From Ignavibacteria bacterium (GTDB lineage Bacteria > Bacteroidota > Ignavibacteria > Kapaibacteriales > Kapaibacteriaceae): DNA of 64,000 nucleotides. The notes beneath the pieces were generated by a model. That model was not told where the DNA came from. It was given only the letters and a program-made list of their open reading frames with translations, and searched no databases. The stretch's first letter is position 1, and every line of letters starts with the position of its first letter. Location of the stretch: positions 1,980,207-2,044,206 of the forward strand of contig CP054181.1 of NCBI GenBank assembly GCA_015709655.1. The letters are read 5' to 3'. Positions 4,518 through 22,803 of this stretch are shown here, piece by piece. A program made the translations under genes and the position numbers.

Positions 4518-4591
4518 TGCTCCCTCGGGGGCTCGAACCCCGGACCCACTGATTAAGAGTCAGTTGCTCTAGCCAGCTGAGCTAAGGAAGC
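4518..4591 (-). tRNA. tRNA-Lys (anticodon CTT)
   Basis: Full cloverleaf: acceptor GCTTCCT/AGGGAGC (one G-T pair), D-arm GCTC/GAGC, anticodon stem ACTGA/TCAGT with loop CTCTTAA, T-arm CGGGG-TTCGAGC-CCCCG, discriminator A. 74 nt, CCA not encoded. A TATTTTTG box on the same strand lies only 3 nt upstream (4595-4602), perhaps too close to be its promoter. The integrase remnant lies just beyond its 3' end. Confidence 0.97.
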
Positions 4592-4634: not shown

Positions 4635-4670
4635 AAAAAAAAGGTCACTGATGTGAATCAGCGACCTTTT
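4635..4670 (-). terminator. Rho-independent terminator of Ig/ASH gene 1
   Basis: On the minus strand a stem AAAAGGTCgCTGAT / ATCAGtGACCTTTT with a 4-nt loop runs into a T-tract, about 20 bp after the stop of the gene ending at 4692. Confidence 0.85.
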
Positions 4671-4691
4671 CAGGAGAAGTTAATCTGGCAC

Positions 4692-7391
4692 TTACCTGAT
4701 AACGTTCAGTTTCATGAAGTACGAACCTTCCGGTGTGGTAATTACGATATTGTACAAGCCGGACGATACCGAGCTTCCGGTGGCGGACGTGAGGTTCCAC
4801 TGTACTTGTTGCGTTGTTGGATGCAGTGTTGTAACGATATTACCCTGCGCATCAACAATCATTACCGTAGTAGCAGTACTTCCCGTATTGATGGTAACCG
4901 TTCCCGTTGCCGGATTCGGGTACGCACTCATGCCAGCCGAATATGCATCGGTTACCGATGCAGCAATTTCGCAGGTACCGCTGGCAGCAACAGCGCTGTT
5001 TCCACCTTCTGCCGATGTAATGAGCAGATTGGCAGTGTAGTTGCCGGGGTTAAGGGGCTTGAACTCGGCGCATACTTCTGCTGATGATCCTGCCTGTACC
5101 GTGAGCGGCAGGGCAGTGGTAATTGTAAACTCTGATACGTTAGTACCGTCAACAGTTACGTTGTCAATTGTAATATCGGCAGCTGTCGGGTTTGAGATGC
5201 TAAAGCACTTTACCCGCACTTCACCCTTGTCAACCGTGCCAAACGGTAACGTCCTGTCAGCCGAATACAGAACAACACCCGATCCTGAAATGGCAATAGA
5301 GCTTGTTCCTGCAGTAGCTGTTGACTGGATGTTTAGGGTAGCGGTCGAGGCGCCGACTGAGCCGGGAGTGAATTTGATTTTTACAGTGAGTGACTCACCC
5401 TTGTTAAGGGTGTTTGAAACGGGTGCAGTAACTGTGAAATCGGCAGCATTGGGTCCGCTAAAATTAAATCCGTTTATGGTTATCGGTACATTACCGCCAT
5501 TGCGAACCAGGGCGTCGAACGTGACTTCGCGACTGTATCCGAAAGGCACTCTACCCATATTGAGTGACGGTGATGAAAGGGCAATTGTCGGGACGCTTGA
5601 GGCGGGGTCAATCACTGTTAGCCTAAATGCTCTCGTTGTAACACTACCGCAGACGTTACTTATCGTAACGCGGTAGAAACCATCGTGCGAGAGATTCACA
5701 CTTGGAATGGTAAATCGGGTATTCGTGCTTCGCTGCACCACCTGGTCATTATGCATCCATACGATTTGACTACCTGTGGTCTGTCCCAGGTCGAACGTTA
5801 CAGATGCTCCAACGTCGGCAATCTGATCTGCGGGCGTTACGGGGATAGCCGGCATGTCAAGGACGTTCAGAACAGCCTGTGAGCTTGTTACGGTAAAGCC
5901 GCAGGTTCCGGTAACTTCAACGGTATAAACTCCGGAATGCTGCTTTGTTGCGTTGTTGATTTTCAGCTCGTAGTTATCGGAGTTGTTAATAGGATTGCCA
6001 TCCTTAAACCACTTGTAATGCAGGTCGGATCCCTCGGCATTCACATGTAGGCTTATACCCGAAGTACCGGCACAAACGTCGGCAGACTGAGGCTGAGTAC
6101 TGATAACGGGTGCTCCGTACACTCCCACGTATGCGCGGTTGGATGACACCTCGGCAGGACATTCGGTTAGGACTGAGCCGGGAACAATCACATGAACCCA
6201 GTAGAAACCTTTATCGCCGTCCTGCAGGTTAGCAAGTGTGAGTGAGCTGCCTGTAGCGCCGGCTATGGGCTGACTCTCTTTATACCACTGATAGCTTAAG
6301 GTAGCGCCTACGGCATTGGCCTGTAGGGTAGTAGTTGAACCGGGACAGAAGAGTCCACCTGCTAAAGGAGAAGCAAATTGTGGTTTAGCAGCAACGGCAA
6401 GAACGGCAGTGGAGCTGGTGACCGGCTTCCCGCAGGCGCCGCTGACAACAACATGGTACTTCCCATCATCACTGATGGTTGCGCTGTTCACGGTATATGT
6501 AGCAGATGTTGCTCCTGTGATTGCCTTGTTGTTGTGATACCACTGATAGGTAAGTGCAGTTCCGGTGGCTTTAACGGTCAGCGTGGCACTCTTCGACTCG
6601 CAAACCGCCTTGCTTTCCGGGTTAGCCGTAATGTCGGCGGGCTGCTGAACTGTTATCGTGAACTTCGGGCTGGTAACCTGCTTATCACATGAATTCGTGA
6701 TGGTAGCATACCACGTTCCGTCATGTCCGCTTTTTGAAGCCGATGGAATTTGCAATATTGGCACAGCAGTTTTAGCAAAGGCTTCGCCATTTCGATACCA
6801 GAGAACCGTAAGCCCCTTGGCATCAGCCATTGAAAACTGCAGGTTAACAATATCGCCCTCACAGGCCTTAACGTCTTTAGGACCAGCAACGATGACCGGC
6901 GGTGTGCATTCAACCTTTATTGCAAACGGGCCATTGTATTTCCAGGCATCCTTGCTGGTGTAGATACATGTTTTCGTGCCGGTTATCCCACCGCTCTTGA
7001 CGGCTTCCGAGATGCGGATGTAGCATTGGTCAACAGTTCCGAAGTCGGACGGTACGGTAAACTTTGCCGTCAGAACACCATAAAATTCCTTGCCATTATA
7101 GTCTGACTTCAGAAGTTCAGCAGTTGTCACGGTGGTCCAGGTCTGTGTACCGTCTGTTGACAGTTGTACCGGGAACTCGCTGGTTTTGGGGAAGTCAGCA
7201 CCGCGCAGGTACATCTCGGCTTCTACAGACATCACGTCGCCTGCTTTAACAGCCTTTGGGTTTGACTCCCCGTTTGCCGAGTACGAATACGTTGCAATGT
7301 AGCCATAGGCATATTCACATTGCGCCTGCATTCTGGAGGTAGAAGCTGCTATCAGCAAGCAGGAAAAAATGAAAGAATACAGTACCTTCAT
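4692..7391 (-). CDS. T9SS-secreted Ig-like/ASH-domain surface protein, array member 1 (899 aa)
   Basis: Signal peptide of 24 residues (cleavage after MQAQ), then an N-terminal domain (about 25-160) of unknown fold starting CEYAYGYIATYSYSANG. Five Ig-like domains follow (about 165-600), each with a Cys near the first strand (VCESKSATL, VCAGTSG) paired with one in the last (SGACG, TGTCG) and a central YQWY or YKWF. Two ASH/choice-of-anchor-D-like domains follow (about 600-815, VPFGYSREVTFDALV and FGTVDKGEVRVKCF). The C-terminus is a T9SS type A sorting domain: YPNPATGTVTI, SSGLYNIVI and the end MKLNVIR. A GGAG ribosome site precedes the ATG. It groups with member 2 by its N-terminal domain. Likely exported and attached to, or released from, the cell surface; adhesion is a reasonable guess, not shown. 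Confidence 0.85.
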   Translation of the reverse strand: MKVLYSFIFSCLLIAASTSRMQAQCEYAYGYIATYSYSANGESNPKAVKAGDVMSVEAEMYLRGADFPKTSEFPVQLSTDGTQTWTTVTTAELLKSDYNGKEFYGVLTAKFTVPSDFGTVDQCYIRISEAVKSGGITGTKTCIYTSKDAWKYNGPFAIKVECTPPVIVAGPKDVKACEGDIVNLQFSMADAKGLTVLWYRNGEAFAKTAVPILQIPSASKSGHDGTWYATITNSCDKQVTSPKFTITVQQPADITANPESKAVCESKSATLTVKATGTALTYQWYHNNKAITGATSATYTVNSATISDDGKYHVVVSGACGKPVTSSTAVLAVAAKPQFASPLAGGLFCPGSTTTLQANAVGATLSYQWYKESQPIAGATGSSLTLANLQDGDKGFYWVHVIVPGSVLTECPAEVSSNRAYVGVYGAPVISTQPQSADVCAGTSGISLHVNAEGSDLHYKWFKDGNPINNSDNYELKINNATKQHSGVYTVEVTGTCGFTVTSSQAVLNVLDMPAIPVTPADQIADVGASVTFDLGQTTGSQIVWMHNDQVVQRSTNTRFTIPSVNLSHDGFYRVTISNVCGSVTTRAFRLTVIDPASSVPTIALSSPSLNMGRVPFGYSREVTFDALVRNGGNVPITINGFNFSGPNAADFTVTAPVSNTLNKGESLTVKIKFTPGSVGASTATLNIQSTATAGTSSIAISGSGVVLYSADRTLPFGTVDKGEVRVKCFSISNPTAADITIDNVTVDGTNVSEFTITTALPLTVQAGSSAEVCAEFKPLNPGNYTANLLITSAEGGNSAVAASGTCEIAASVTDAYSAGMSAYPNPATGTVTINTGSTATTVMIVDAQGNIVTTLHPTTQQVQWNLTSATGSSVSSGLYNIVITTPEGSYFMKLNVIR

Positions 7392-7598
7392 AGGTGCTCT
7401 CCGTGGTTATATCGATGGATAAAGAAGCCGGGATTCGGCTGTCGAAATGACGCTGGTGATAAGCATATAGCGCTCCAGGAGAAATTTGGTTACACTGTGC
7501 GGAGCATTGCGGCACATTTTCAGCATTAAACCACGTCATCTGCTACAATTCTGACAGGCAGTGGTGAAATGCAGAGGATGTAAGACCAGCCTATCAGC

Positions 7599-7630
7599 AA
7601 AAAAAACGGGTATGCTGGCAAGCATACCCA
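7599..7630 (-). terminator. Terminator of Ig/ASH gene 2
   Basis: Stem GGGTATGCT / AGCATACCC with a GGCA loop on the minus strand, followed by a run of eight T (A at 7599-7606). Confidence 0.85.
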
Positions 7631-7668
7631 TTGTGAGTTGTGAGATGTAGTAAGCTACGTTAATTTGA

Positions 7669-10365
7669 TTAACGAATTACGTTCAGTTTCATGAAGTACG
7701 AACCTTCTGTTGCAGCAACAACGATAGTGTACATACCGGATGGAGCTGCATTACCGTCGGAGGATGTAAGATTCCACTGTGCTGACGTTGATGTTGGATA
7801 CAGAGTTGTAACTACATTGCCGCGGGCATCGAGAATCGTGACCGATGTGGCGATGGTGCTTCCCGTGCTTATGGTAACGGTGCCTGAAGCCGGATTTGGG
7901 TACGCGCTCATGCCAACCGAATACGCATCGGTTACTGATGCAGCAATTTCGCAGGTACCAGTGGCTACTACAGTAGTGTTACCAGCATCAGCAGATGTAA
8001 TGAGTAAATCGGCAGTATATGATCCCGGGTTAACGGGCTTGAACTCGGCACATACTTCGGCGGTGCCGCCGGCAGGGACGGTAAGCGGTAATGTGGTGGT
8101 GATACCGAATTGTGCCGTACTTGCACCTCCGACGGTGACGGCCTCAATTGCAATGTCGGCTGCAGTAGGATTGGTGATCGTGAAGCATTTTAAGCGAACT
8201 TCGCCCTTATCAACAGTACCAAAATCCAGTTTGCGGTTTACCGAATAGAGAACAACGCCCGAGCCGGAAATCCCAACCGAGCTTGTCCCGGCAGTTGCAG
8301 TGGACTGAACGTTAAGTGTAGCCGAAGAGGTGCCAACGAAGCTTGGAGTGAATTTGATTTTTACAGTGAGTGACTCACCCTTGTTAAGAGTGTTGGCAAC
8401 AGGCGCAGTAACCACAAAATCAGCAGCATTGGGTCCACTAAAACTAAATCCGTTTACGGTGATCGGTACATTACCGCCATTGCGTACCAGGGCGTCAAAC
8501 GTAGTTTCGCGACTGTATCCGAAAGGCACTCTGCCCGCATCAAGGGACGGCGATGAAATCGTGATTGTTGGAATTTGTGATGCGGGGTCAACAACTGTTA
8601 AACGGGCGCTCCTTGAAGTGACGCTTCCGCAGGCGCTGTTGATAACAATGCGGTAGAAGCCTTCGTCAGACAACTGAACGGCTGGGATAGTAAACGATGT
8701 GGCGGCACCACGGGACAGAATCTGATCGTCGTGCATCCAAACAACTTCCTGTGCATGATCAGCCGTAACGTTGAATGTAACTGACTTACCAACGTCGGCA
8801 GTTTTGTCGGCAGGCTGTACCGTGATTGCCGGAACTCCAACAACGCTGACAACTGCCTGCTGGGACGAGGCCGTAAATCCGCACACACCCGTAATCTCTA
8901 CGGTGTAAACACCTGAATGCTGCCTCTTTGCGTTTATAAGTTCCAGCTGATAACTGTTAGAATTATTAATGGGGTTGCCATCCTTAAACCACTTGTAATG
9001 CAGGTCGGATCCCTCCACGCTTACGGTGAGTTTTACGGTTGTACCTTCACATGCGTTAACAGACTGTGGTTGGGCACTTATTGTTGGGGCGCCGTGAACG
9101 CCGATATACACCCGGTCTGACATAGATTCGGCATTACAGCCGGTTTGGGCCGACCCTGGCACGCTAACATGTACCCAGTAAAAACCTTTATCATCGCTGG
9201 TCATGTTTGCCAGTGTGAACGAAGGCTTGTTGGCGCCCTGGATAGGCTGATTATCTTTATACCATTGATAGGTAAGCGTGGAGCCGGTTGCCGCACCGTT
9301 AAGAGTAGTTGTAGCACCTGGACAGAACAAACCGCCTACAGGTGTTTGGGTGAATACCGGTTTGGCAGCAACGATAATAGTAGCCCTCTGACTGGTGTCG
9401 GGTTTACCACAAGCCCCTTTAGCTACCACAAAATACGTTCCTTCATCAATGAGTTTCGCAGATCCAATCAGGTAAGAGTTACCGGTTGCGCCATTGATTG
9501 GCATGTTGTTTTTATACCACTGATACGTAATCAGCGAACCGGTAGCGTTTGCTGCAAGACTGTATTGCTGTCCGTCACACAACGTTTTTCCCGTTGGATG
9601 AGCCGTAATGAGAGCAGGTTTTTGGACAGTTACCTGGTAGGTAGAGGTATTGGCTGACAGGCCACATGCATCCTTGATCTTCACGTACCATGTACCCTGA
9701 TGCTGGCTTTGGGCTACTGAGGCAATGGTATATGACGGAGTTCCGGTCGTTGCTGCAAGCCCGCCATTACAGTACCATTCATAGGTGATTACACCCGGGT
9801 TTGATGATGCGTTTACCGTCATTGTCAGCGGCGATCCCTCGCATCCGGTCACATTGGTTGGCTGACTGAAAATCGTAGGCGTTACGCACGGTGCCTTGAT
9901 TTCGAAGGGTCCGTCGGCATACCAGTCATTCTTGCCGGCATACAAACAATCTTTGGAACCGTCGGGAAGTTCCTCACCCACTCGAATGTAACAATTTTTC
10001 CCATAACCAAAATTAGAAAGTGTAAATTCGCCGGTGATCCAGCCGTAGATATAGCCGTAGCCGTCATCGTACGGACCATACAGATACTGGCAGTACGCAA
10101 CAGTGGTCCACGTCCGGCCGGCATCGGTAGAGATCTGAATCGGGAAATAATGGTCCATCGGGAAGTCCTGAACATCGTAAAATTCAAAGTATGCTTCCAG
10201 ATAGATTACGTCACCGGCTGCAACGAGGGTTGGGCGGTACTTTCCGTTGGCATCCCAGTAATCGATCCCGATGTATCCGTAGTTGTACTCGCACTGTGCC
10301 TTGGTCTGCACTGCTCCCAAAGTTACAAACAGGGCAAGAATGAGAGTTGTATAAAATTTACTCAT
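7669..10365 (-). CDS. T9SS-secreted Ig-like/ASH-domain surface protein, array member 2 (898 aa)
   Basis: Same plan as member 1: signal peptide (cleavage near TKAQ), N-terminal domain starting CEYNYGYIGIDYWDANG and unusually rich in Tyr and Gly, five Ig-like domains, two ASH-like domains (VPFGYSRETTFDALV and FGTVDKGEVRLKCF), and a T9SS tail (YPNPASGTVTI, SGMYTIVV, end MKLNVIR). N-terminal domains of members 1 and 2 share about the same length and the CEYxYGYI opening, making a subgroup distinct from members 3-6, which open with CW. An AGGA ribosome site precedes the ATG. It has its own terminator and a 277-bp upstream gap, so it is probably a single-gene unit. Function unknown. Confidence 0.85.
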   Translation of the reverse strand: MSKFYTTLILALFVTLGAVQTKAQCEYNYGYIGIDYWDANGKYRPTLVAAGDVIYLEAYFEFYDVQDFPMDHYFPIQISTDAGRTWTTVAYCQYLYGPYDDGYGYIYGWITGEFTLSNFGYGKNCYIRVGEELPDGSKDCLYAGKNDWYADGPFEIKAPCVTPTIFSQPTNVTGCEGSPLTMTVNASSNPGVITYEWYCNGGLAATTGTPSYTIASVAQSQHQGTWYVKIKDACGLSANTSTYQVTVQKPALITAHPTGKTLCDGQQYSLAANATGSLITYQWYKNNMPINGATGNSYLIGSAKLIDEGTYFVVAKGACGKPDTSQRATIIVAAKPVFTQTPVGGLFCPGATTTLNGAATGSTLTYQWYKDNQPIQGANKPSFTLANMTSDDKGFYWVHVSVPGSAQTGCNAESMSDRVYIGVHGAPTISAQPQSVNACEGTTVKLTVSVEGSDLHYKWFKDGNPINNSNSYQLELINAKRQHSGVYTVEITGVCGFTASSQQAVVSVVGVPAITVQPADKTADVGKSVTFNVTADHAQEVVWMHDDQILSRGAATSFTIPAVQLSDEGFYRIVINSACGSVTSRSARLTVVDPASQIPTITISSPSLDAGRVPFGYSRETTFDALVRNGGNVPITVNGFSFSGPNAADFVVTAPVANTLNKGESLTVKIKFTPSFVGTSSATLNVQSTATAGTSSVGISGSGVVLYSVNRKLDFGTVDKGEVRLKCFTITNPTAADIAIEAVTVGGASTAQFGITTTLPLTVPAGGTAEVCAEFKPVNPGSYTADLLITSADAGNTTVVATGTCEIAASVTDAYSVGMSAYPNPASGTVTISTGSTIATSVTILDARGNVVTTLYPTSTSAQWNLTSSDGNAAPSGMYTIVVAATEGSYFMKLNVIR

Positions 10366-10479
10366 AGTGTACGTCCTGAAAATATTGAATACGTAATCAG
10401 TAGGTTGCTATATAACGCTAATGCACTGCTTCGGTTACGGTACCCTGTGCAATAAGTTAAAATAACAATAAAAAATGCA

Positions 10480-10511
10480 AAAGCCCCTTTCCTGGTGGAG
10501 AAAGGGGCTTT
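10480..10511 (-). terminator. Terminator of Ig/ASH gene 3
   Basis: Stem AAAGCCCCTTTC / GAAAGGGGCTTT with a short loop, followed on the minus strand by a T-rich stretch (A-rich 10461-10480 on the plus strand). Confidence 0.75.
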
Positions 10512-10539
10512 AAATAGTATTGGATTCGACAGATTATAT

Positions 10540-13248
10540 CTATCTGGCCACGTTGAGTTTCATGAAGTATGAACCGGCCGGGTTAGTTACAATGATGTTG
10601 TACAGACCAGAAGCGAGTGGTAAACCGTTGGCATTTGTCAGGTTCCATACGGTAGCAGACAGTGTGGGGTGCAGGGTGGCAACCACGGCACCGTGTGCAT
10701 CGACGATCGAGATGGTTGATGCGACAGTTTCACCGGTGTTGATGGTAACGCTTCCGCTTGCCGGGTTCGGATAGATGCTCATACCGGCATTCAGGGCGTC
10801 CAGAGTAACCGATGATGCTATTTCGCATGTTCCATTGGCGCCGACAGTAGAGTTGCCGCCGGTGCTGGACTTGATGGCAAAGCTGGCAGTGTAGCTACCT
10901 ACTTCGTGCGGGGTAAACTCGGCACATACTTCCTTGGTGCTACCGGCTGGGACCTCAACGGGCAGCGGAGTAGTGATGCTGAACAGCGAAGCATTGGTAC
11001 CGCTGACCTGGATATCATCAATGGTAATGTTGGTTGACGAGGTGTTGTTAATGGTGAAGCACTTGATCCGTGTTTCATTCTTGTCGGCAGTGCCAAACTC
11101 TACCGTCTGGTCAGTTGTGTACAGCACAACACCGTTACCGCTGATCTCTGCCGTGCTTTCGCCTTCGGTGGCGGTGGACTGAATGTTCAGTGTGGCGGTG
11201 GAGGTGCCAACAAAACTTGGCGTGAATTTAATCTTCACGGTGAGTGACTCACCTTTATTCAATGTGTTGGCAACCGGAGCGGTAACCACGAAGTCAGCCG
11301 CGTTGGGACCGCTGAAGCTAAAGCCGTTTACTGTAATCGGCACGTTGCCTGCATTCATGACCAGTGCATCGAAGGTGACTTCATTGCTGTAGCCAAAGGG
11401 TACGTTGCCGGCGTCAAGGGTAGGTGACGAAACAGCGATGGTCGGCACCAGCGAGCTGGGGTCGATCACGGTAACGCGTGCCAGACGAGAGTTTACGCTG
11501 CCGCAGACGTTGGTGATCACAGCCTGGTAGAAGCCGACATCGCTGAGCTTGACGTCTGTCAGTGTAAGTGTGGCCTCGGTTCCCCTTGCCACTTCCTTAC
11601 CGTTACGGAGCCATACAACCTCTTGTGCACCCTGATTGTTTGCAGTTAGCGTTATGGTTTCACCGACCTCGGCAATAGCGTCGGCAGGCTGCGAGGTGAG
11701 CACCGGTAATGAGTACACATTTACTTCGGCAACCTCACTGGTTGCAAAGAAGCCGCACATGCTGCTCACCTGCACCGAGTATGAGCCCTGCTGTGCGGGA
11801 GTAACGTTGTTGAGTTCGAGAGCATAGTTGTTTGACTGCGGAATCGGAGCCCCTTTATAGAACCACTGATACTGAAGATCTGCGCCCTCAGCATTTACGG
11901 TAAGCGTAATGTCGGACCCTTCACAAACGTCGGCCGAGGCAGGTTGTTCGGTAATGGTAGGTGCATCATATACGCCAACATAGACGCGGCCCGAGGTGGC
12001 GTCGGCCAGGCAGCCGGTTTCAGCTGATCCCGGCACGACTACATACACCCAGTAGAAGCCGTTGTCGCGTTCTGAGATATTATCAATCGTTAGTGTTCTC
12101 TGGTTTGCACCAAGAATCGGTTTATCGCCCTTGTACCACTGGTAGGCCAGGATGTTGCCTGTTGTTTGAGCCGAGAGAGTAGCCTTGCTGCCCGGACAGA
12201 AGGTTCCGCCTGCAAGCGGAGTTGTAAACCGCGGTTTCACGGGTACAGCAATGGTAATTGCTTCGCTGGTGTCCGGGTCGCCGCAGGTACCGTTAACGAT
12301 TACCTGGTACACACCTTCGTTATCGGAAGAGGCACTGGGGATGCTGACTGTAGTTCCGGTTGCTCCGGACATTGCTACGCCGTCCTTATACCACTGATAC
12401 TTAAGGTTCGTACCTTCGGCAGCCACAGAAATTGTGTGTGAATTGCCTTGGCAAACAGTTTTCGATTGTGGCTCCTGCGTAATCTTGGTCGGGATGTCAA
12501 TCGTTACTCTAAACTCATCTGTCTTCGCCTTGGTACCGCAAACGTCAATAATGTTAACCATCCATGTTCCCTCGTGGTCAGCCTTAACTGATTGTGCATA
12601 GGAAAGTGATGGCTGCAGAGTAGTTGTCATTAACACGCCGTCTTTATACCACTCAAAAAAGATGTATCCGTATTCTTCCTTTGTTGCAATCTTCATGGAC
12701 AGCGGATCGCCCTGACATACGGCAATACTTGATGGTTGCGGTTTGACGATAGGCGTAACGCAGGGACGAATTACCTTAATCTTGCCATACCAGTATGGCT
12801 GATTGTAGTCTGGTGGGTACGATTCAGCACAACTCTTGGTATTATTGGGGACTTCCTTTACCCGGATGTAGTAGTCACCAGGCTTTGTGTCGGTTGGCAG
12901 TGTGAACTTATAGACAAGTTCGCCATAGTAGTCATATTTATAATCCCAGGTGGTTACGTCGTCGCTTAAACTCTTCCACGTTGTACCGCCGTCTCCCGAG
13001 AGCTCAACCGCGAATTTCGAGTCTGGAAACCTTCCACTATAATAATAGATCCAGAAGTAAGCAGCTACAACGTCACCGGGTGCAACGGTCAGAGCCTGGT
13101 CACTCCAAACATACTGTCCGGTTTTAGCGTCAATGAAATAGTCAAAAACTAGTTGGCCATTCCAGTTCCAGCAGTCCTGGGCTTTTACCCCGACGCTTGA
13201 CTGGAATAGCAACACTGCAAACACAAATAATGTTGCAAAAGATTTCAT
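10540..13248 (-). CDS. T9SS-secreted Ig-like/ASH-domain surface protein, array member 3 (902 aa)
   Basis: The start is placed at ATG 13248 because the protein then begins with a normal signal peptide (MKSFATLFVFAVLLFQ, cleavage near VKAQ) and has an upstream AAGGG; the longer frame to 13320 adds 24 unlikely residues. The N-terminal domain (about 25-165) opens CWNWNGQLVFDYF, is rich in aromatic residues and contains ELSGDGGTTW and PGDYYIRVKEVP. Five Ig-like domains, two ASH-like domains and a T9SS tail (YPNPASGSVTINTG, ASGLYNIIV, end MKLNVAR) follow. From the first Ig domain to the T9SS tail it is nearly identical to members 4-6 and shares a 380-bp identical stretch with member 4. Function unknown; surface display is inferred. 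Confidence 0.85.
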   Translation of the reverse strand: MKSFATLFVFAVLLFQSSVGVKAQDCWNWNGQLVFDYFIDAKTGQYVWSDQALTVAPGDVVAAYFWIYYYSGRFPDSKFAVELSGDGGTTWKSLSDDVTTWDYKYDYYGELVYKFTLPTDTKPGDYYIRVKEVPNNTKSCAESYPPDYNQPYWYGKIKVIRPCVTPIVKPQPSSIAVCQGDPLSMKIATKEEYGYIFFEWYKDGVLMTTTLQPSLSYAQSVKADHEGTWMVNIIDVCGTKAKTDEFRVTIDIPTKITQEPQSKTVCQGNSHTISVAAEGTNLKYQWYKDGVAMSGATGTTVSIPSASSDNEGVYQVIVNGTCGDPDTSEAITIAVPVKPRFTTPLAGGTFCPGSKATLSAQTTGNILAYQWYKGDKPILGANQRTLTIDNISERDNGFYWVYVVVPGSAETGCLADATSGRVYVGVYDAPTITEQPASADVCEGSDITLTVNAEGADLQYQWFYKGAPIPQSNNYALELNNVTPAQQGSYSVQVSSMCGFFATSEVAEVNVYSLPVLTSQPADAIAEVGETITLTANNQGAQEVVWLRNGKEVARGTEATLTLTDVKLSDVGFYQAVITNVCGSVNSRLARVTVIDPSSLVPTIAVSSPTLDAGNVPFGYSNEVTFDALVMNAGNVPITVNGFSFSGPNAADFVVTAPVANTLNKGESLTVKIKFTPSFVGTSTATLNIQSTATEGESTAEISGNGVVLYTTDQTVEFGTADKNETRIKCFTINNTSSTNITIDDIQVSGTNASLFSITTPLPVEVPAGSTKEVCAEFTPHEVGSYTASFAIKSSTGGNSTVGANGTCEIASSVTLDALNAGMSIYPNPASGSVTINTGETVASTISIVDAHGAVVATLHPTLSATVWNLTNANGLPLASGLYNIIVTNPAGSYFMKLNVAR

Positions 13249-13576
13249 ACAAAGAACCCTTCGTTGGTTAAATCCTGAATTGTTTTCAATGGTACTGTGC
13301 GGTTCATACAGTATGCTCAAAAAACACCTGTTGGCATTAACACATCCGGAGCTGAAAACGCAATGTAATTCAACGAATCTGTCAACACGCTATGAAACCA
13401 GTTTACAACAATAACACTTAGTAGGGATTATTGTTACTTTGGGGGTCGGTTACTAAAACTACAAAATGTTGTAACAACTAGATAATTAAAGTCCTTACGA
13501 CGCAACGGTGCTGTTCATGGTTCCGATTTGATGCAGCGTGTTTACCCGGATAACAAGGGCATACCCCATAAATAAA
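13249..13576. other. Intergenic region upstream of array member 3
   Basis: About 330 bp between the start of member 3 and the terminator of member 4. It must hold the member 3 promoter and leader. I see no TAnnTTTG box with a matching upstream TTTG, no RNA gene and no credible small protein. Confidence 0.5.
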
Positions 13577-13608
13577 ACGGCTCTCCTCTGATATCAGAGG
13601 AGAGCCGT
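13577..13608 (-). terminator. Terminator-like palindrome of Ig/ASH gene 4
   Basis: A perfect 32-bp palindrome (arms ACGGCTCTCCTCTGAT / ATCAGAGGAGAGCCGT) lies about 30 bp after the stop; the minus-strand tail is only moderately T-rich. Almost the same palindrome follows member 5. Confidence 0.75.
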
Positions 13609-13638
13609 GTGTAAAATCGGCAGATTGATGGTTACGGG

Positions 13639-16395
13639 TTATCTGACAACGTTGAGCTTGATGTAGAACGAACCTGCCGGATTGGCAATGATGACGTTGT
13701 ACACACCCGATGGGACAGGCAAGCCTGCAGCATCACTCAGGTTCCATACGGTAGCAGACTGTGTGGGGTGCAGGGTGGCAACCACGGCACCGTGAGCATC
13801 GACGATCGAGATGGTTGATGCGACAGTTTCACCGGTGTTGATGGTAACGCTTCCGCTTGCCGGGTTCGGATAGATGCTCATACCGGCATTCAGGGCGTCC
13901 AGAGTAACCGATGATGCTATTTCGCATGTTCCATTGGCGCCGACAGTAGAGTTGCCGCCGGTGCTGGACTTGATGGCAAAGCTGGCAGTGTAGCTACCTA
14001 CTTCGTGCGGGGTAAACTCGGCACATACTTCCTTGGTGCTACCGGCTGGGACCTCAACGGGCAGCGGAGTAGTGATGCTGAACAGCGAAGCATTGGTACC
14101 GCTGACCTGGATATCATCAATGGTAATGTTGGTTGACGAGGTGTTGTTAATGGTGAAGCACTTGATCCGTGTTTCGTTCTTGTCGGCAGTACCAAACTCT
14201 ACCGTCTGGTCAGTTGTGTACAGCACAACACCGTTGCCGCTGATCGCTGCCGTGCTTGCGCCTTCGGTGGCGGTGGACTGAATGTTCAGTGTGGCGGTGG
14301 AGGTGCCAACAAAACTGGGCGTGAATTTGATTTTTACGGTGAGTGACTCACCTTTATTCAGTGTGTTGGCAACCGGAGCGGTAACCACGAAGTCAGCCGC
14401 ATTGGGACCGCTGAAGCTAAAGCCGTTTACGGTTATCGGTACGTTGCCTGCATTCATGACCAGTGCATCAAAGGTAACTTCGTTGCTGTAGCCAAAGGGT
14501 ACGTTGCCGGCGTCAAGAGTCGGTGACGAAACGGCGATGGTCGGCACCAGCGAGTTGGGATCGATCACGGTAACGCGTGCAGGACGAGAGTTTACGCTGC
14601 CGCAGACGTTGGTGATCACAGCCTGATAGAAACCGGCATCGCTGAGCTTAACGTCGGTCAGTGTGAGTGTGGCCTCGGTTCCCTTGGCCACTTCCTTACC
14701 GTTACGGAGCCATACAACTTCCTGTGCACCCTGATTATTTACTGTCAGCGTTACGGTTTCACCAACCTCGGCAATCGCGTCGGCAGGCTGCGAGGTGAGT
14801 ACCGGTAATGAGTACACCTTCACTTCGGCGACCTTACTGGTTGCAAAAAAGCCGCACATGCTGCTCACCTGCACAGAGTACGAGCCCTGCTGTGCGGGAG
14901 TAACATTGTTGAGTTCAAGAGCGTAGTTGTTTGACCGCGGAATCGGAGCCCCTTTAAAGAACCACTGATACTGAAGATCTGCGCCTTCAGAAATCGCGGT
15001 AAGGGTAATGTCAGACCCGGCACAAACGTCGGCCGAGGCAGGTTGTTCAGTAATGGTTGGGGCATCATAAACGCCAACATAGACGCGGCCCGAGGTGGCG
15101 TCGGCCAGACAGCCGGTTTCAGCCGAACCCGGAACAACTACATACACCCAGTAGAAGCCGTTGTCGCGTTCTGAGATAGCGTCAATTGTTAAATTCTTTT
15201 GGTTCTCGCCAAGCATTGGCTTGTCGCCCTTGTACCACTGATAGGCCAGGATGGTGCCTGTGGTATTGGCCGTAAGGGTAACCTTTGCACCGGGACAGTA
15301 GGTACCACCAGCGAGTGGCACCGTAAAGCTTGGTTTTACAGGGACAGCAATGGTTGCAACATCACTGGTGTCGGGATCACCGCAGGTACCATTAACAATA
15401 ACCTGATACAAGCCTTCATTCTCCGAAGATGCACTGGGGATGTTAATGGATGTTCCTGTAGCACCCATGATTGGGGAACCATTTTTATACCACTGGTATC
15501 TCAGGGATGTGCCTTCAGCAGCCACGGTGATTATGTGTGAATTGCCCTGGCAAACAGTTTTCGATTGTGGCTCCTGAGTGATTCTGGTTGGAATATCAAT
15601 CGATACTTTAAACTCATTTGTTTTTGCCTTTGTGCCACAAACATCGATGATGTTAACCATCCACGTTCCCTCGTGGTTTGCCTTTACGGATTGCGCATAG
15701 GTTAGGACGGGTTGCAGCGTGGTTGTAACAAGCTCACCATTGCGGTACCATTCAAAGAAAATGTAGCCGTACTCTTCCTTGGTTGCAATCTTCATCGTGA
15801 GCGGGTCTCCCTGACACACGGCAATATTCGACGGTTGTGGTTTTACTACCGGCGTAACACACGGGCGTACAACCTTGATTTTTCCGTACCAGTACGGCTG
15901 GTTGTAGTCTGGCGGATACGATTGCGCACACCCGCCGTCGGTAGGGACTTCTTTCAGTCGAATGAAATAGTCGCCCGGCTTTAAGTCATTTGGGAGCGTA
16001 AGGCGATCATGAAACATTCCATAGTAATCATATTTATATGACCACGGTGGGTTGCTGCTTGTACTTAAATCATCAGCAGTATATGTTTTTATTACCGTCC
16101 AGCTTGAACCACCATCGCCCGAAATTTCAAATACAAACGAGGCGTTTTTGGGAAGAAAGGTACCGTAACTGGCATAATAGGAATAGTAGTAAAAGTAAAA
16201 ATATGGGTCAATTACTCCGCCCGGATAGGTTTGAACCTGACCATCTGAATAAATATACTGGCCCGTCTGGGTGTCAATAAAGTACTGGAAATACGTATAT
16301 CCCATGTAATTCCAACACGTTTGCGCTTTTGCACCGGTGTGGGTTTGAAGCGCGATGGCAGTAAACACCAACAATGTAGCAAGTGATTTCAACAT
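13639..16395 (-). CDS. T9SS-secreted Ig-like/ASH-domain surface protein, array member 4 (918 aa)
   Basis: Signal peptide MLKSLATLLVFTAIALQ with cleavage near AKAQ, then a Tyr-rich N-terminal domain opening CWNYMGYTYFQYF and containing a run of tyrosines (YFYFYYYSYYASYG). It shares the KEVPTDGG and SYPPDYNQPYWYGK segments with member 3. Five Ig-like and two ASH-like domains follow, then a T9SS tail ending PSGVYNVII and IKLNVVR. The last 135 bp and the terminator are almost identical to member 5, while the ASH region is closest to member 3, so the gene is a mosaic of its neighbours. AAGG lies upstream of the ATG. Function unknown. Confidence 0.85.
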   Translation of the reverse strand: MLKSLATLLVFTAIALQTHTGAKAQTCWNYMGYTYFQYFIDTQTGQYIYSDGQVQTYPGGVIDPYFYFYYYSYYASYGTFLPKNASFVFEISGDGGSSWTVIKTYTADDLSTSSNPPWSYKYDYYGMFHDRLTLPNDLKPGDYFIRLKEVPTDGGCAQSYPPDYNQPYWYGKIKVVRPCVTPVVKPQPSNIAVCQGDPLTMKIATKEEYGYIFFEWYRNGELVTTTLQPVLTYAQSVKANHEGTWMVNIIDVCGTKAKTNEFKVSIDIPTRITQEPQSKTVCQGNSHIITVAAEGTSLRYQWYKNGSPIMGATGTSINIPSASSENEGLYQVIVNGTCGDPDTSDVATIAVPVKPSFTVPLAGGTYCPGAKVTLTANTTGTILAYQWYKGDKPMLGENQKNLTIDAISERDNGFYWVYVVVPGSAETGCLADATSGRVYVGVYDAPTITEQPASADVCAGSDITLTAISEGADLQYQWFFKGAPIPRSNNYALELNNVTPAQQGSYSVQVSSMCGFFATSKVAEVKVYSLPVLTSQPADAIAEVGETVTLTVNNQGAQEVVWLRNGKEVAKGTEATLTLTDVKLSDAGFYQAVITNVCGSVNSRPARVTVIDPNSLVPTIAVSSPTLDAGNVPFGYSNEVTFDALVMNAGNVPITVNGFSFSGPNAADFVVTAPVANTLNKGESLTVKIKFTPSFVGTSTATLNIQSTATEGASTAAISGNGVVLYTTDQTVEFGTADKNETRIKCFTINNTSSTNITIDDIQVSGTNASLFSITTPLPVEVPAGSTKEVCAEFTPHEVGSYTASFAIKSSTGGNSTVGANGTCEIASSVTLDALNAGMSIYPNPASGSVTINTGETVASTISIVDAHGAVVATLHPTQSATVWNLSDAAGLPVPSGVYNVIIANPAGSFYIKLNVVR

Positions 16396-16847
16396 CGTGT
16401 AAACCTTGAATAATGATTACGTGAAAACTTTTTCAATCCGCACAGAGTTTTTCATCCAATGCTGTAGGCGTGCCATACGGAATGCTGGTTGAATTCAGAA
16501 TTGTACGTGGAGCAACACCGACAATCTGACAGCTTGTACGAAGAAAATCAACCAGTCAAGTGCCCGACAATCTGGCAGGTAGTAAAATAAGTTAGCACCC
16601 GAGCCAGACGTAACACAGCTTGAACGTAATATCGTTAGCACCTGAAGCGGGTTTTGGTTACAACGTTTATGAGTAACCAACAAGTGCAGAGTATGCTGCT
16701 CATCACTGTGTTTTGTGGTAAGGCTGTTGTTCCCTTACGGTTAATGAAGTTGAGTGAGGTCAAAAAAAGAAGTAAGAAAAAAACATGTCAAGGCAGAAAG
16801 AAGAGTATTCACATAGTGTAAGTAGCAATGTTCAGAAATAAAAAAGA
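16396..16847. other. Long intergenic region upstream of array member 4
   Basis: About 450 bp. It contains a short imperfect direct repeat (CGACAATCTG near 16530 and again near 16563) and an A-rich stretch near 16760-16850. A 62-codon minus-strand frame here has no protein-like features. No RNA gene seen. Confidence 0.45.
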
Positions 16848-16879
16848 ACGGCTCTCCTCTGATTTCAGAGGAGAGCCGT
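16848..16879 (-). terminator. Terminator of Ig/ASH gene 5
   Basis: Near-perfect palindrome (ACGGCTCTCCTCTGA / TCAGAGGAGAGCCGT) differing at one central base from the one after gene 4; the flank 16837-16845 is A-rich, giving a T-rich minus-strand tail. Confidence 0.8.
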
Positions 16880-16909
16880 GTGTAAAATCGGCAGATTGAT
16901 GGTTACGGG

Positions 16910-19681
16910 TTATCTGACAACGTTGAGCTTGATGTAGAACGAACCTGCCGGATTGGCAATGATGACGTTGTACACACCCGATGGGACAGGCAAGCCTGCT
17001 GCATCACTCAGGTTCCACACGGTAGCAGACTGTGTTGGGTGCAGGGTGGCAACCACGGCACCGTGTGCATCGACAATCGAGATGGTTGATGCGACAGTTT
17101 CACCGGTGTTGATGGTAACGCTTCCGCTTGCCGGGTTCGGATAGATGCTCATACCGGCATTCAGGGCGTCCAGAGTAACCGATGATGCGATTTCGCATGT
17201 TCCATTGGCGCCGACGGAAGAGTTTCCGCCGGTGCTGGACTTGATGGCAAAGCTTGCAGTGTAGCTACCTACTTCGTGCGGGGTAAACTCAGCGCATACT
17301 TCCTTGGTGGTACCGGCGGGGATGCTAACCGGTAGCGGTGTGGTAACTCGGAACAGCGAAGTATTGGTACCGCTGACCTGGATGTCATCAATGGTAATGT
17401 TGGTTGACGAGGTGTTGTTGATGGTGAAGCACTTGATCCGTGTTTCGTTCTTGTCGGCAGTACCAAACTCTACCGTCGGGTCAGTTGTGTACAGCACAAC
17501 ACCGTTGCCGCTGATCGCTGCCGTGCTTTCGCCTTCGGCGGCGGTGGACTGAATGTTCAGTGTGGCGGTGGAGGTGCCAACAAAACTGGGCGTGAATTTA
17601 ATCTTCACGGTGAGTGACTCACCTTTATTCAGTGTGTTGGCAACCGGAGCGGTGACAACGAAGTCGGCTGCGTTTGGACCGCTGAAACTAAAGCCGTTTA
17701 CGGTAATCGGCACGTTGCCTGCATTCATGACCAGTGCATCAAAGGTAACTTCGTTGCTGTAGCCAAAGGGTACGTTGCCGGCGTCAAGAGTCGGTGACGA
17801 AACAGTGATGGTCGGCACCAGCGAGTTGGGATCGATCACGGTAACGCGTGCAAGACGAGAGTTTACGCTGCCGCAGACGTTGGTGACCACTGCCTGATAG
17901 AAACCGGCATCACTGAGCTTGACGTCGGTCAGTGTGAGTGTAGCCTCGGTTCCCTTGGCCACTTCCTTACCGTTACGGAGCCATACAACTTCCTGTGCAC
18001 CCTGATTATTTACTGTCAGCGTTACGGTTTCACCGACCTCGGCAATTGCGTCGGCGGGCTGCGATGTGAGCACCGGTAATGAGTACACCTTCACTTCGGC
18101 GACCTTACTGGTTGCAAAAAAGCCGCACATGCTGCTCACCTGCACCGAGTATGAACCCTGCTGTGCGGGAGTAACATTGTTGAGTTCAAGAGCGAAGTTG
18201 TTTGACTGCGGAATCGGAGCCCCTTTAAAGAACCACTGATACTGAAGATCTGCGCCTTCAGACGTAACTGTAAGGGTAATGTCAGATCCGGCACAAACGT
18301 CGGCGGAGGCAGGTTGTTCGGTAATGGTTGGTGCATCATATACGCCAACATAGACGCGGCCCGAGGTGGCGTCGGCCAAACAGCCGGTTTCGGCAGATCC
18401 GGGAACGACCACGTACACCCAGTAGAAGCCGTTGTCGCGTTCTGAGATATTATCAATCGTTAGTGTTCTCTGATGAGCGCCAAGAATTGATTTATCGCCT
18501 TTGTACCACTGGTAGGCCAGGATGTTGCCTGTTGTTTGAGCCGAAAGAGTAGCCTTGCTGCCCGGACAGAAGGTTCCGCCTGCAAGCGGAGTTGTAAACT
18601 GCGGTTTAATCGGCACTGCGATGGTGGCTGTCTCGCTGGTGTCGGGGTCACCGCAGGTACCGTTAACGATTACCTGGTACACACCTTCGTTATCGGAAGA
18701 GGCGCTGGGGATGTTGATTGTCGGCGTTGTTGCACCCGGCATGGCGGTGCCATCCTTATACCACTGATACTTAAGGTTCGTACCTTCGGCAGTAACGCTG
18801 ATCGTGTGTGAGTTCCCCTGGCATACCGTACGGTTTTGCGGTTCCTGGGTGATCTTTGTTGGAATATCAATTGCAACCCTAAATTCTTTCGTTTGTGCTT
18901 TGGTACCGCAAACGTCAATAATGTTTACGTACCAGGTGCCCTCATGATTTGCCTTTACAGACTGCGGATACGAGAGAGTGGGTTGCAGCGTAGTTGTCAT
19001 TAGCGAACCGTCGCGATACCATTCAAAAAAGACATATCCGTAATCTTCCTTAGTATCAATCTTCATGGACAGCGGATCACCCTGACATACGGCAATATTT
19101 GATGGCTGCGTATTTACAACCGGAGTGACGCACTTGCGTTTGACGGTCAGGTTCCCAATCTGGCCGGAAAATGAGTCAGGCGAGTATCCAATACCACAGC
19201 TCCCGTCATCCTTAATGTTTTTCTCGCAGATGCGCAGATAATAGCTTCCGGGCTTCATGGTGGTAGGGATTGTATAGTCAACAAAATGATAGCCATACAG
19301 CACACCCCAGTAATAGTACCACGGCGAATTGGAATTACTCTGATTGGTTGTGGTGTAGTACGTGAGTGTATCAACAGATACGGTACGAATGTCCGTCCAT
19401 GTTGTCTTGTCGTCGGATATCTGAATCTTCCACTCTGTATTCTTGGGCTTACCATAGCTGTTGTAGTAATTCAGGTAGTACATGTAGAACACAGGACGGA
19501 TTTTATCGCCTTGATAGACAGTGATAGAGTTCCCCAAACCATAATAATAGTTATACGAGGGATCGCCGAAGCCGTTAAAGTACGTATAGCCCTGATAGTT
19601 CCAGCACGTCTGAGCTTTAACAGCTGCGCCGGAAATAGCAAGCAAGGTTATAAGAACTAAAGTAGAAAAGAACGATTTCAT
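16910..19681 (-). CDS. T9SS-secreted Ig-like/ASH-domain surface protein, array member 5 (923 aa)
   Basis: The start is set at ATG 19681, giving a clean signal peptide (MKSFFSTLVLITLLAISG, cleavage near VKAQ); the frame can be extended to 19756 but without signal-peptide character. The N-terminal domain opens CWNYQGYTYFNGF and is the most divergent of members 3-6: it has YLRICEKNIKDDG and YSPDSFSGQIG where members 3 and 4 have the PDYNQPYWYGK segment. Five Ig-like domains, two ASH-like domains and a T9SS tail almost identical to member 4 (end IKLNVVR) follow. Own terminator, long upstream gap. Function unknown. Confidence 0.85.
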   Translation of the reverse strand: MKSFFSTLVLITLLAISGAAVKAQTCWNYQGYTYFNGFGDPSYNYYYGLGNSITVYQGDKIRPVFYMYYLNYYNSYGKPKNTEWKIQISDDKTTWTDIRTVSVDTLTYYTTTNQSNSNSPWYYYWGVLYGYHFVDYTIPTTMKPGSYYLRICEKNIKDDGSCGIGYSPDSFSGQIGNLTVKRKCVTPVVNTQPSNIAVCQGDPLSMKIDTKEDYGYVFFEWYRDGSLMTTTLQPTLSYPQSVKANHEGTWYVNIIDVCGTKAQTKEFRVAIDIPTKITQEPQNRTVCQGNSHTISVTAEGTNLKYQWYKDGTAMPGATTPTINIPSASSDNEGVYQVIVNGTCGDPDTSETATIAVPIKPQFTTPLAGGTFCPGSKATLSAQTTGNILAYQWYKGDKSILGAHQRTLTIDNISERDNGFYWVYVVVPGSAETGCLADATSGRVYVGVYDAPTITEQPASADVCAGSDITLTVTSEGADLQYQWFFKGAPIPQSNNFALELNNVTPAQQGSYSVQVSSMCGFFATSKVAEVKVYSLPVLTSQPADAIAEVGETVTLTVNNQGAQEVVWLRNGKEVAKGTEATLTLTDVKLSDAGFYQAVVTNVCGSVNSRLARVTVIDPNSLVPTITVSSPTLDAGNVPFGYSNEVTFDALVMNAGNVPITVNGFSFSGPNAADFVVTAPVANTLNKGESLTVKIKFTPSFVGTSTATLNIQSTAAEGESTAAISGNGVVLYTTDPTVEFGTADKNETRIKCFTINNTSSTNITIDDIQVSGTNTSLFRVTTPLPVSIPAGTTKEVCAEFTPHEVGSYTASFAIKSSTGGNSSVGANGTCEIASSVTLDALNAGMSIYPNPASGSVTINTGETVASTISIVDAHGAVVATLHPTQSATVWNLSDAAGLPVPSGVYNVIIANPAGSFYIKLNVVR

Positions 19682-19983
19682 TCTACCATCCATGAATTGG
19701 TTGTTAAAAGTTGTTTGTTTGCCTTGTTTGAGTATTACTATATCTACATCTTGCACAAAATACGATAAAATCTTACCTTGTCAAGACAAAATGCCACTAT
19801 GTAGTGACATAAAAAGGAAAAAGGTCACCGACCGCTACCTGTGCCCGAGGCGTACTGCCATCCCGTCGGAATTACTGGTACTTGTTATGACACATTTTTG
19901 CTGATAAAGGGGCTTTGCCAGCAGCGGTAAATGACTGTGTACCAAAAAAATGCCACAAGGTCTTCTCAGTAATCCAAACCCCT
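19682..19983. other. Intergenic region upstream of array member 5
   Basis: About 300 bp. On the minus strand there is a TATTTTG (19756-19762) with TTG 19 bp further upstream, one base short of the TAnnTTTG consensus, so only a possible promoter. Nothing else recognised. Confidence 0.35.
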
Positions 19984-20020
19984 TAAAAAAAACGGCTCCC
20001 CGCTATTCGTGAGGAGCCGC
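19984..20020 (-). terminator. Terminator of Ig/ASH gene 6
   Basis: Stem CGGCTCC / GGAGCCG (19993-20019) followed on the minus strand by a run of eight T. Confidence 0.85.
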
Positions 20021-20052
20021 ATGGTGAAAGGGCGACAAATTACATTTTCAGA

Positions 20053-22803
20053 TTATCTGACAATATAGAGCGTCATGAAGTACGAGCCTGTCAAATTGGC
20101 AATGATAATGGTGTATGATCCCGACGGCAACGTTTGACCTGACGAAGTTGTCAGGTCCCATGCAGTAACTGACTGCGTTGGATGAAGAGTGGCTACAACA
20201 ATGCCCTGGGCATCCACAATGGTGATGGTAGAGGCTATCGTTTCACCAGTGTTGATGGTGACGTTTCCATTTACCGGATTCGGGTAGATGCTCATACCGT
20301 CATTCAGGGCGTCCAGAGTAACCGATGATGCGATTTCGCATGTTCCATTGGCGCCGACGGAAGAGTTGCCGCCGGTGCTGGACTTGATGGCAAAGCTGGC
20401 AGTGTAGCTACCTACTTCGTGCGGGGTAAACTCAGCGCATACTTCCTTGGTGGTACCGGCGGGGATGCTAACCGGTAGCGGTGTGGTAACTCGGAACAGC
20501 GAAGCATTGGTACCGCTGACCTGGATGTCATCAATGGTAATGTTGGTTGACGAGGTGTTGTTAATGGTGAAGCACTTGATCCGTGTTTCATTCTTGTCGG
20601 CAGTACCAAACTCTACCGTCTGGTCAGTTGTGTACTGCACAACACCACTGCCACTGATTTCAACACTGCTTTCGCCATCGGTGGCGGTGGACTGGATGTT
20701 CAGTGTGGCGGTGGAGGCGCCCACTGAGCTTGGCGTGAATTTGATTTTTACGGTGAGTGACTCGCCTTTATTCAGTGTGTTGGCAACCGGAGCGGTGACA
20801 ACGAAGTCTGTGGCGTTGGGACCGCTGAAGCTTAAGCCGTTTACTGTAATCGGTACGTTGCCTGCATTCATGACCAGTGCATCGAAGGTAATTTCATTGC
20901 TGTAGCCAAAGGGTACGTTGCCGGCGTCAAGGGTAGGTGACGAAACAGCGATGGTCGGTACCAGCGAGTTGGGGTCGATCACGGTAACGCGTGCCAGACG
21001 AGAGTTTATGCTGCCGCAGACGTTGGTGATCACAGCCTGATAGAAACCGGCATCACTGAGCTTAACGTCTGTCAGTGTGAGTGTGGCTTCTGTTCCCTTG
21101 GCCACTTCCTTACCGTTACGGAGCCATACAACTTCCTGTGCACCCTGATTGTTTACTGTCAGCGTTACGGTTTCACCAACCTCGGCAATCGCGTCGGCAG
21201 GCTGCGAGGTGAGTACCGGTAGCGAGTACACATTCACTTCGGCAACCTTACTGGTTGTAAAGAAGCCGCACATGCTGCTCACCTGCACCGAGTATGAACC
21301 CTGCTGTGCGGGAGTAATGTTGTTGAGCTCTAGAGCGTAGTTGTTTGACTGCGGAATCGGAGCCCCTTTAAAGAACCACTGATACTGAAGATCTGCACCT
21401 TCAGCATTTACGGTAAGAGTAATGTCGGACCCTTCACAAACGTTGGCGGAGGTAGGTTGTTCGGTAATGGTTGGTGCATCATAAACGCCAACATAGACGC
21501 GGCCCGAGGTAGCGTCGGCCAAACAGCCGGTTTCGGCAGATCCGGGAACGACCACGTACACCCAGTAGAAGCCATTGTCGTGTTCTGAGATATTATCAAT
21601 TGTTAGTGTTCTCTGATTAGCGCCAAGAATTGGCTGATCGCCCTTGTACCACTGATAGGCCAGGATATTGCCTGTTGTTTGCGCCGAGAGAGTAGCCTTG
21701 CTGCCCGGACAGAAAGTTCCACCGGCAAGCGGAGTTGTAAACTGCGGTTTAATCGGAACTGCGATAGTGGCTGTCTCGCTTGTGTCCGGGTCACCGCAGG
21801 TACCGTTAACGATTACCTGGTACACACCTTCGTTATCGGAAGAGGCACTGGGGATGTTTATTGTCGGCGTTGTTGCACCCGGCATGGCGGTGCCATCCTT
21901 ATACCACTGATACGTAAGGTTCGTGCCTTCGGCAGAAACGCTGATCGTGTGTGAATTTCCCTGGCACACCGTTCGGTTTTGCGGTTCCTGGGTGATTTTG
22001 GTTGGAATATCGATTGTAACCTTGAATTCGTTCGTTTGTGCCTTTGTACCACATACGTCAATAATGTTTACGTACCAGGTGCCTTCATGATTTTCTTTTG
22101 ACGATTCGGGGAATGACAGCGTCGGAGCCAGCGTGGTGGTTACGAGTGTACCATTGCGGTACCATTCAAAAAAGATGTAACCGTACTCTTCCTTAGTTGC
22201 GATTTTCATTGTGAGCGGATCGCCCTGACAAATAGAAATGTTCGACGGCTGCGGACTAATTACCGGAGTAACACACGGACGTTTCACCGTCATCTTACCA
22301 TAGGTATAGGTGTTGGGTGCATTCGACACACCACAGCCGCTGGATTTTTCTTCACGTCCACGTACAACGTAATCACCTGGAGCCAGGTTGGTTGGCAGGG
22401 TAATTTTGTCGTAAAAGTAACCGTAATAGGTGGATCGGGTGTACCACGGCGGATTGGTTCTGTTGTTTAGGTCATCATATTCCCAGGTTTTTAAAACCTT
22501 CCAGGTAACACCATCATCCTTTGAAATTTCAAAATGCCATTTGGAATCCTTCGGAGGGAACTGGTTCCCGTTGTTCCTATAGTAGGTGTAGGCATACAGG
22601 TACATGTGTGGCTGGATTACATCTCCGGGAAGAACTACTAACGGAGTACCATTGTAATAGTACAGGCGGTTGCCGGTTTTGGTGTCAACAAAATAGTTGA
22701 AGTAAAAACTGGCTTGCCGGTCCCAACAGGTTTGCGAATACACTTTTGATCCAACCGTACTCCACAAAAGCAGAACTATAAAAATAGTTAAAAGATGTTT
22801 CAT
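20053..22803 (-). CDS. T9SS-secreted Ig-like/ASH-domain surface protein, array member 6 (916 aa)
   Basis: Signal peptide MKHLLTIFIVLLLWSTVG, cleavage near VYSQ. The N-terminal domain opens CWDRQASFYFNYFVDTKTG and contains HFEISKDDGVTW and PGDYVVRGREEKSSG, so it keeps the group-B layout but with different surface residues. The five Ig-like and two ASH-like domains are very close to members 3-5. The T9SS tail has diverged (YPNPVNGNVTI, PSGSYTIII, end MTLYIVR). An AAGGG lies upstream of the ATG. As the most upstream gene on the strand it bounds the array. Function unknown. Confidence 0.85.
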   Translation of the reverse strand: MKHLLTIFIVLLLWSTVGSKVYSQTCWDRQASFYFNYFVDTKTGNRLYYYNGTPLVVLPGDVIQPHMYLYAYTYYRNNGNQFPPKDSKWHFEISKDDGVTWKVLKTWEYDDLNNRTNPPWYTRSTYYGYFYDKITLPTNLAPGDYVVRGREEKSSGCGVSNAPNTYTYGKMTVKRPCVTPVISPQPSNISICQGDPLTMKIATKEEYGYIFFEWYRNGTLVTTTLAPTLSFPESSKENHEGTWYVNIIDVCGTKAQTNEFKVTIDIPTKITQEPQNRTVCQGNSHTISVSAEGTNLTYQWYKDGTAMPGATTPTINIPSASSDNEGVYQVIVNGTCGDPDTSETATIAVPIKPQFTTPLAGGTFCPGSKATLSAQTTGNILAYQWYKGDQPILGANQRTLTIDNISEHDNGFYWVYVVVPGSAETGCLADATSGRVYVGVYDAPTITEQPTSANVCEGSDITLTVNAEGADLQYQWFFKGAPIPQSNNYALELNNITPAQQGSYSVQVSSMCGFFTTSKVAEVNVYSLPVLTSQPADAIAEVGETVTLTVNNQGAQEVVWLRNGKEVAKGTEATLTLTDVKLSDAGFYQAVITNVCGSINSRLARVTVIDPNSLVPTIAVSSPTLDAGNVPFGYSNEITFDALVMNAGNVPITVNGLSFSGPNATDFVVTAPVANTLNKGESLTVKIKFTPSSVGASTATLNIQSTATDGESSVEISGSGVVQYTTDQTVEFGTADKNETRIKCFTINNTSSTNITIDDIQVSGTNASLFRVTTPLPVSIPAGTTKEVCAEFTPHEVGSYTASFAIKSSTGGNSSVGANGTCEIASSVTLDALNDGMSIYPNPVNGNVTINTGETIASTITIVDAQGIVVATLHPTQSVTAWDLTTSSGQTLPSGSYTIIIANLTGSYFMTLYIVR

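Follow-up and report, generated by a model that had tools for sequence, protein, structure and literature searches.

Six tandem genes in an uncultured member of the Kapabacteria encode proteins of one secreted architecture, in which a common stalk has been homogenised by overlapping gene-conversion tracts while the N-terminal tip domains are of old origin and differ from copy to copy, yet stay conserved along each lineage and are not hypervariable. It is about an even call that the array provides adhesin-like proteins secreted by the T9SS, in which a common rod would present distinct tips, held by purifying selection, most likely to different glycans or partners. Surface proteins encoded in tandem arrays or containing repeats that recombine are already known from T9SS bacteria, and the six genes are a good instance of a surface-protein family of this familiar sort, not a new system.

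Organisation of the gene array

The window, which is the whole stretch of 64,000 nucleotides analysed and corresponds to positions 1980207-2044206 of the genome contig, contains six complete genes on the minus strand, g1 to g6, spanning positions 4692 to 22803. First in the order of transcription is g6 (20053..22803, 916 amino acids), followed by g5 (16910..19681, 923 amino acids), g4 (13639..16395, 918 amino acids), g3 (10540..13248, 902 amino acids), g2 (7669..10365, 898 amino acids), and g1 (4692..7391, 899 amino acids). The start codons of g5 and g3 were placed at ATG codons (19681 and 13248), with reading frames which open at a GTG (19756) and a TTG (13320), respectively. All six share a signal peptide, a tip, five Ig domains, two choice-of-anchor-D/ASH domains, and a T9SS type A tail. 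Scans with Pfam and NCBIfam models detected four or five Ig_3 stretches and two HYDIN/choice-of-anchor-D domains in every one of the proteins, and the tail model TIGR04183 scored 24.8–35.3 bits in all six at a curated cut-off of 23. The six open reading frames and these scans confirm the original prediction of six same-strand genes with one secreted architecture. No enzyme domain was found in the Pfam and NCBIfam scans, and no leucine-rich repeat family was among the Pfam matches listed. The genome, a single contig of 2.84 Mb, has no full-length copies beyond g1 to g6. It also carries the T9SS parts SprA_N and three genes of the PorV family, and with tails above the cut-off the six proteins are predicted to be secreted as T9SS type A cargo. 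About 37 kb past the end of the window a second group of long Ig-containing reading frames (1067, 1062, and 909 amino acids; G000:C1:2081612-2089788) is found.

A terminator-like hairpin lies 3' of every stop codon. It is clear for g5 (16848..16879), g4 (13577..13608), g3 (10480..10511), g2 (7605..7632), and g1 (4638..4671) and weak for g6 (19991..20004; all minus strand), so that the proposal of an own terminator for each gene holds with a reservation for g6; as a class, such sites numbered 25 against a mean of 20.4 in shuffled sequences, which is only slightly above. The leaders of the six genes are 174–514 bp long, displayed no obvious relation when compared by eye, and contain the −33/−7 promoter pattern of Bacteroidota in two cases only. 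Each gene is probably its own transcription unit. The GC content is 44–51% in the tips and 50–53% in the stalk, with 51% for the window.

The outer border of the array is a tRNA-Lys(CTT) gene (4517..4591, minus strand), which is common to the congeners G003 and G005. The border at the other side in congeners is hppA (25967..28096, minus strand), coding for a 709-amino-acid membrane protein named proton pyrophosphatase from its sequence rather than by profile search. Between the array and hppA a glycoside hydrolase-like gene with a C-terminal sorting tail (23730-25903, plus strand) is split over three reading frames in different frames (23730-24413, 24209-24973, and 25079-25903), being either a pseudogene or a sequencing error. 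Elsewhere in the window (39364-45923, plus strand) a two-gene unit is duplicated in tandem, its very similar copies coding for a cysteine-rich protein of 237/239 amino acids and a secreted protein of 838/840 amino acids.

Gene conversion in the stalk

Among g3 to g6 silent sites are saturated in the signal peptide, the tip, and Ig1 (pS about 0.6–0.94), and pS drops to 0.04–0.3 from Ig4/Ig5 to ASH2. Despite its saturated silent sites Ig1 has retained 74–88% amino acid identity. The left border of the young segment depends on the pair, lying at Ig2 for g5/g6, around Ig3 for g3/g5 and g3/g6, and around Ig4 for the pairs with g4. At the other end the tail matches well only among g3, g4, and g5 (84–100%, versus 67–68% with g6), and old tail ends are present in g3 and g6. 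The supposed near-identity of the region from Ig to T9SS tail in these four genes is therefore real between Ig2–Ig4, depending on the pair, and ASH2, and does not extend to Ig1 or to the tail, which frays. The idea of divergent tips on a homogenised stalk, on the other hand, was borne out by saturated pS in the tips versus low pS in the stalk.

The longest runs of identical silent codons exceeded those expected from permutation in all six pairs of g3 to g6 (p 0.0005–0.004), with 125 consecutive codons in g3/g4. The genes g1 and g2 are outside this homogenised stalk and are joined to each other by a weaker island (pS 0.42 in ASH1 and 0.56 in the T9SS tail), their longest run also exceeding permutation (p 0.007). 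None of the eight pairs between the two groups had an excess of such runs. The terminator regions of g4 and g5 differ in one base up to about 65 bp past the stop codon, from which it follows that conversion extended beyond the stop codon. A young middle flanked by old ends, with borders specific for each pair, is characteristic of gene conversion that has occurred repeatedly. The stalks of g3 to g6 thus carry overlapping conversion tracts, and weak tracts also connect g1 and g2; the alternation of older and younger stretches within a gene, together with the clustering of identical silent codons, is that of concerted evolution by gene conversion.

A recent duplication of the stalk followed by capture of new tips, that is, domain shuffling rather than conversion, would offer another origin for the same contrast. 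In sister genera, a second kind of tip, called type B here (L042, L049, and L066), with a motif like DAFGDGWN, is found on the same kind of stalk; two type B tips tested against Pfam had no match at E<=1. Two genomes, G008 and G017, have a tandem pair of one Kre9/KNH-like and one type B tip. A single clade for the stalks of three type B genes is rejected (p-AU 3.8e-8, for a group picked after the tree had been seen), which means that tip exchange or stalk conversion has occurred in the family and that tip and stalk are decoupled elsewhere, too. For the array itself, however, domain shuffling is improbable. The young segment is bounded on both sides by old sequence, namely, leader, tip, and Ig1 on one side and the tail and 3' untranslated region of g3 and g6 on the other, and its left border differs by pair. 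Furthermore, tips and stalks fall into the same two clades, g1 with g2 and g3 to g6, and the tips were therefore not imported from an unrelated source. A search of the genome with the tips recovered only the six of the array and two fragmentary matches at E 0.1–0.2.

Selection on the tips

High dN/dS in the tips and low dN/dS in the stalk had been expected from the original prediction. Ratios from the paralogues in the window are unusable for this purpose because silent sites of tip and Ig1 are saturated, and the contrast they yield arises because gene conversion has lowered dS in the stalk. The only orthologue pairs which could be scored come from the two-copy congeners G003 and G001 and not from the six genes of this species; here dN/dS of the tip was 0.05 (G003_a/G001_a) and 0.06 (G003_b/G001_b), with 0.03–0.19 for the stalk domains. 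Diversifying selection on the orthologous tips of the congeners is rejected by these values, which lie within or below the range of the stalk. The expectation of a contrast has failed for these pairs, and a lack of contrast had itself been named beforehand as the outcome speaking against the proposal. The tips of orthologues in congeners are 91–95% identical, versus 20–59% between paralogues in the window. A comparable situation was found in another genus, where the paralogues G014_1 and G014_2 have 53% identity in the tip and 89% in ASH2, and the orthologues G020_A and G014_2 have 87% and 88%, respectively.

Antigenic or phage-escape variation, with tips under diversifying selection and the array serving as a recombination reservoir for new variants, is very improbable in view of these data. 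Tandem paralogues, gene conversion, and differences in copy number between species are indeed ingredients of such systems. The low dN/dS of orthologous tips and the absence of conversion from the tips speak against it, as do six complete genes, each with its own start, leader, and terminator-like site, among which neither silent cassettes nor a single expression site were seen.

The main rival is a neutral one. Gene conversion fails once sequence identity falls, and an early divergence may simply have blocked conversion of the tips, the copies then providing dosage of one structural protein of matrix or envelope, with little functional meaning in the tip differences. Ig1, which is conserved in its amino acids, has likewise escaped conversion, so that escape is not specific for the tip. 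In addition, contrast between tip and stalk is small for g1/g2 and for the paralogues of a two-copy congener (G003 a/b, pN 0.42 in the tip and 0.26–0.42 in the stalk). Two findings argue against this explanation: the tips of g3 to g6 are only 34–59% identical, compared to 75–88% for Ig1 at equally saturated silent sites, and orthologous tips in congeners are strongly conserved (dN/dS around 0.05). Together they suggest that the tips have roles of their own and are not simply under relaxed constraint. We consider the neutral explanation rather unlikely, though to be taken seriously.

Identity of the tip domain

The tips comprise 157 amino acids in g6 (22264..22734), 164 in g5 (19121..19612), 158 in g4 (15850..16323), 143 in g3 (12751..13179), 140 in g2 (9877..10296), and 142 in g1 (6897..7322; all minus strand). 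Direct searches did not name them, with no Pfam family matching a window tip. The Kre9_KNH family (PF10342) was not found at E<=0.1 among the best 25 families listed for the six whole proteins, at E<=1 with the tips of g2 and g4 searched alone, or at E<=0.01 at the array in a search of the own genome. NCBIfam had no match to a window tip, and a profile search of the sequences of solved structures with the tip yielded nothing which names it (best E 0.005). Identification became possible through relatives. Tips at the same position in sister genera scored 28.5 and 24.9 bits with PF10342 at a cut-off of 24.6, more such tips were found in several species, and in two homologues scanned from other families of the order Kre9_KNH directly precedes the Ig domains (30.5 and 32.0 bits). 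Alignment of the window tips to the family tips with hhalign gave a probability of 98.4% and E 4.2e-15.

AlphaFold2 models of two tips, g6 (pLDDT 76.6) and g2, predicted together with its relatives (pLDDT 78.9), have a pTM of 0.77 each and are all or mostly beta, with the fold of an Ig-like sandwich. Structural searches with these models returned Ig-like sandwiches at Z 7–9. As this is near background for such folds, the fold says little on the ligand, and no ligand is claimed from the search; the best match to the first model was the carbohydrate-binding domain of Wzt (Z 8.9), which also ranked high with the second (Z 7.9). Linked to this family by intermediates which occupy the equivalent place in related proteins, the window tip is thus a diverged Kre9/KNH-like Ig domain. 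It resembles the N-terminal Ig-like domain of PF10342 in position, in motif pattern, and in the profile match through the tips of sister genera, but it is below detection by the Pfam model and is longer and more aromatic than most. Tyrosine, tryptophan, and phenylalanine make up 14–25% of the window tips and 19–26% of the congener tips, compared to 7–8% of the stalk. The domain, first described as unrecognised, has in this way been assigned by the sister-genus tips, hhalign, and AlphaFold2. A known and uniform domain had been named as speaking against the repertoire idea; the domain is known and differs between copies.

The locus in related genomes

Beside hppA, the six congeners including this genome carry 6, at least 5, 2, 2, 0, and 0 copies, and the suspected variation in copy number is thus seen between species at one conserved locus. 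The complete order of tRNA-Lys, two copies, hppA, and tRNA-Val is present in G003, where an integrase-like gene beside the border tRNA-Lys (L036:3861-5129) suggests an integration hotspot. In G001 two copies adjoin hppA, one of them cut by the end of the contig. The number of at least five for G005 assumes that two contigs form one array, one with three copies and a cut copy beyond tRNA-Lys and the other with one copy beside hppA; two sequences of this genome (L095 and L096) are filed under a Bradyrhizobiaceae metagenome-assembled genome and group with Kapabacteria by array genes and genome placement. In G002 and G004 the left neighbours of hppA are unchanged, but the array is missing.

Full-length relatives of the stalk (E<=1e-60) were present in 20 of the 23 genomes searched for the family and in 52 of 123 at the level of the order; outside the family there is usually one copy per genome. 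The order-wide protein of Kapabacteria consists of choice-of-anchor-V, Kre9_KNH, Ig, choice-of-anchor-D, and T9SS domains and has a related stalk, Kre9_KNH directly before Ig, and the T9SS tail in common with the window proteins. It differs in being usually single-copy and in its extra N-terminal choice-of-anchor-V domain, which the arrayed window proteins lack. In the order-level relatives L177-L188, which begin with this domain, a Cys/His motif varies between CxCH, CxxCH, and CxxxCH and is possibly a heme or metal site.

Proposed function and known comparators

A tandem duplication at one chromosomal spot would have given rise to the six copies, and homologous recombination would keep converting their stalks towards one another, with tips, leaders, signal peptides, and Ig1 either too diverged to convert or spared by selection. 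The proteins would first be exported by the Sec pathway, then be recognised by the T9SS via the type A tail, and end up outside the cell, either on display or set free. A rod may be formed by the five Ig and two choice-of-anchor-D domains, with the aromatic-rich Kre9/KNH-like Ig domain at its N-terminus, and each tip would be a distinct domain under purifying selection, most likely for its own glycan or surface partner. Kre9/KNH proteins owe their name to a role in fungal beta-glucan. This name, the aromatic content, and the weak similarity to Wzt suggest that the tips are probably glycan-binding. The aromatic residues could also be structural or aid adhesion without glycan specificity. A more specific form, an Ig-on-Ig display repertoire in which recombination actively keeps the rod interchangeable while every copy bears a different aromatic-rich recognition face, dedicated to one glycan or partner cell, is offered tentatively and is on present data unlikely. 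From the original idea of a surface repertoire with a constant stalk and different tips, the secreted architecture and the homogenised stalk have stood, and diversifying tips and an unrecognised domain have not.

Comparable arrays have been described. Flavobacterium psychrophilum has 17 tandem-arranged leucine-rich repeat proteins which are putative secreted adhesins (PMC9723704), and their copy number differs between isolates (PMC8400371). These, too, are tandem putative secreted adhesins of variable copy number in a T9SS bacterium, but they are built from leucine-rich repeats rather than KNH, Ig, and ASH domains and so are not homologous, and they vary between strains, whereas the variation here is between species. 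In Porphyromonas gingivalis, repeat regions of RgpA, Kgp, and HagA are identical within and between genes, and recombination has been discussed as a source of diversity (PMC5266723). There the shared part is the adhesin itself, whereas in the window array it is the stalk, the tips are kept apart, and no protease domain is present. A search of the open-access literature for concerted evolution together with T9SS found no paper with this pattern.

With conversion in the stalk, stable distinct tips, and a single locus whose copy number ranges from 0 to 6, these uncultured Kapabacteria offer a clear natural example of how putative surface rods can stay alike while their tips stay apart. The array also cautions against inferring diversifying selection from a single genome merely because identical stalks bear divergent tips.
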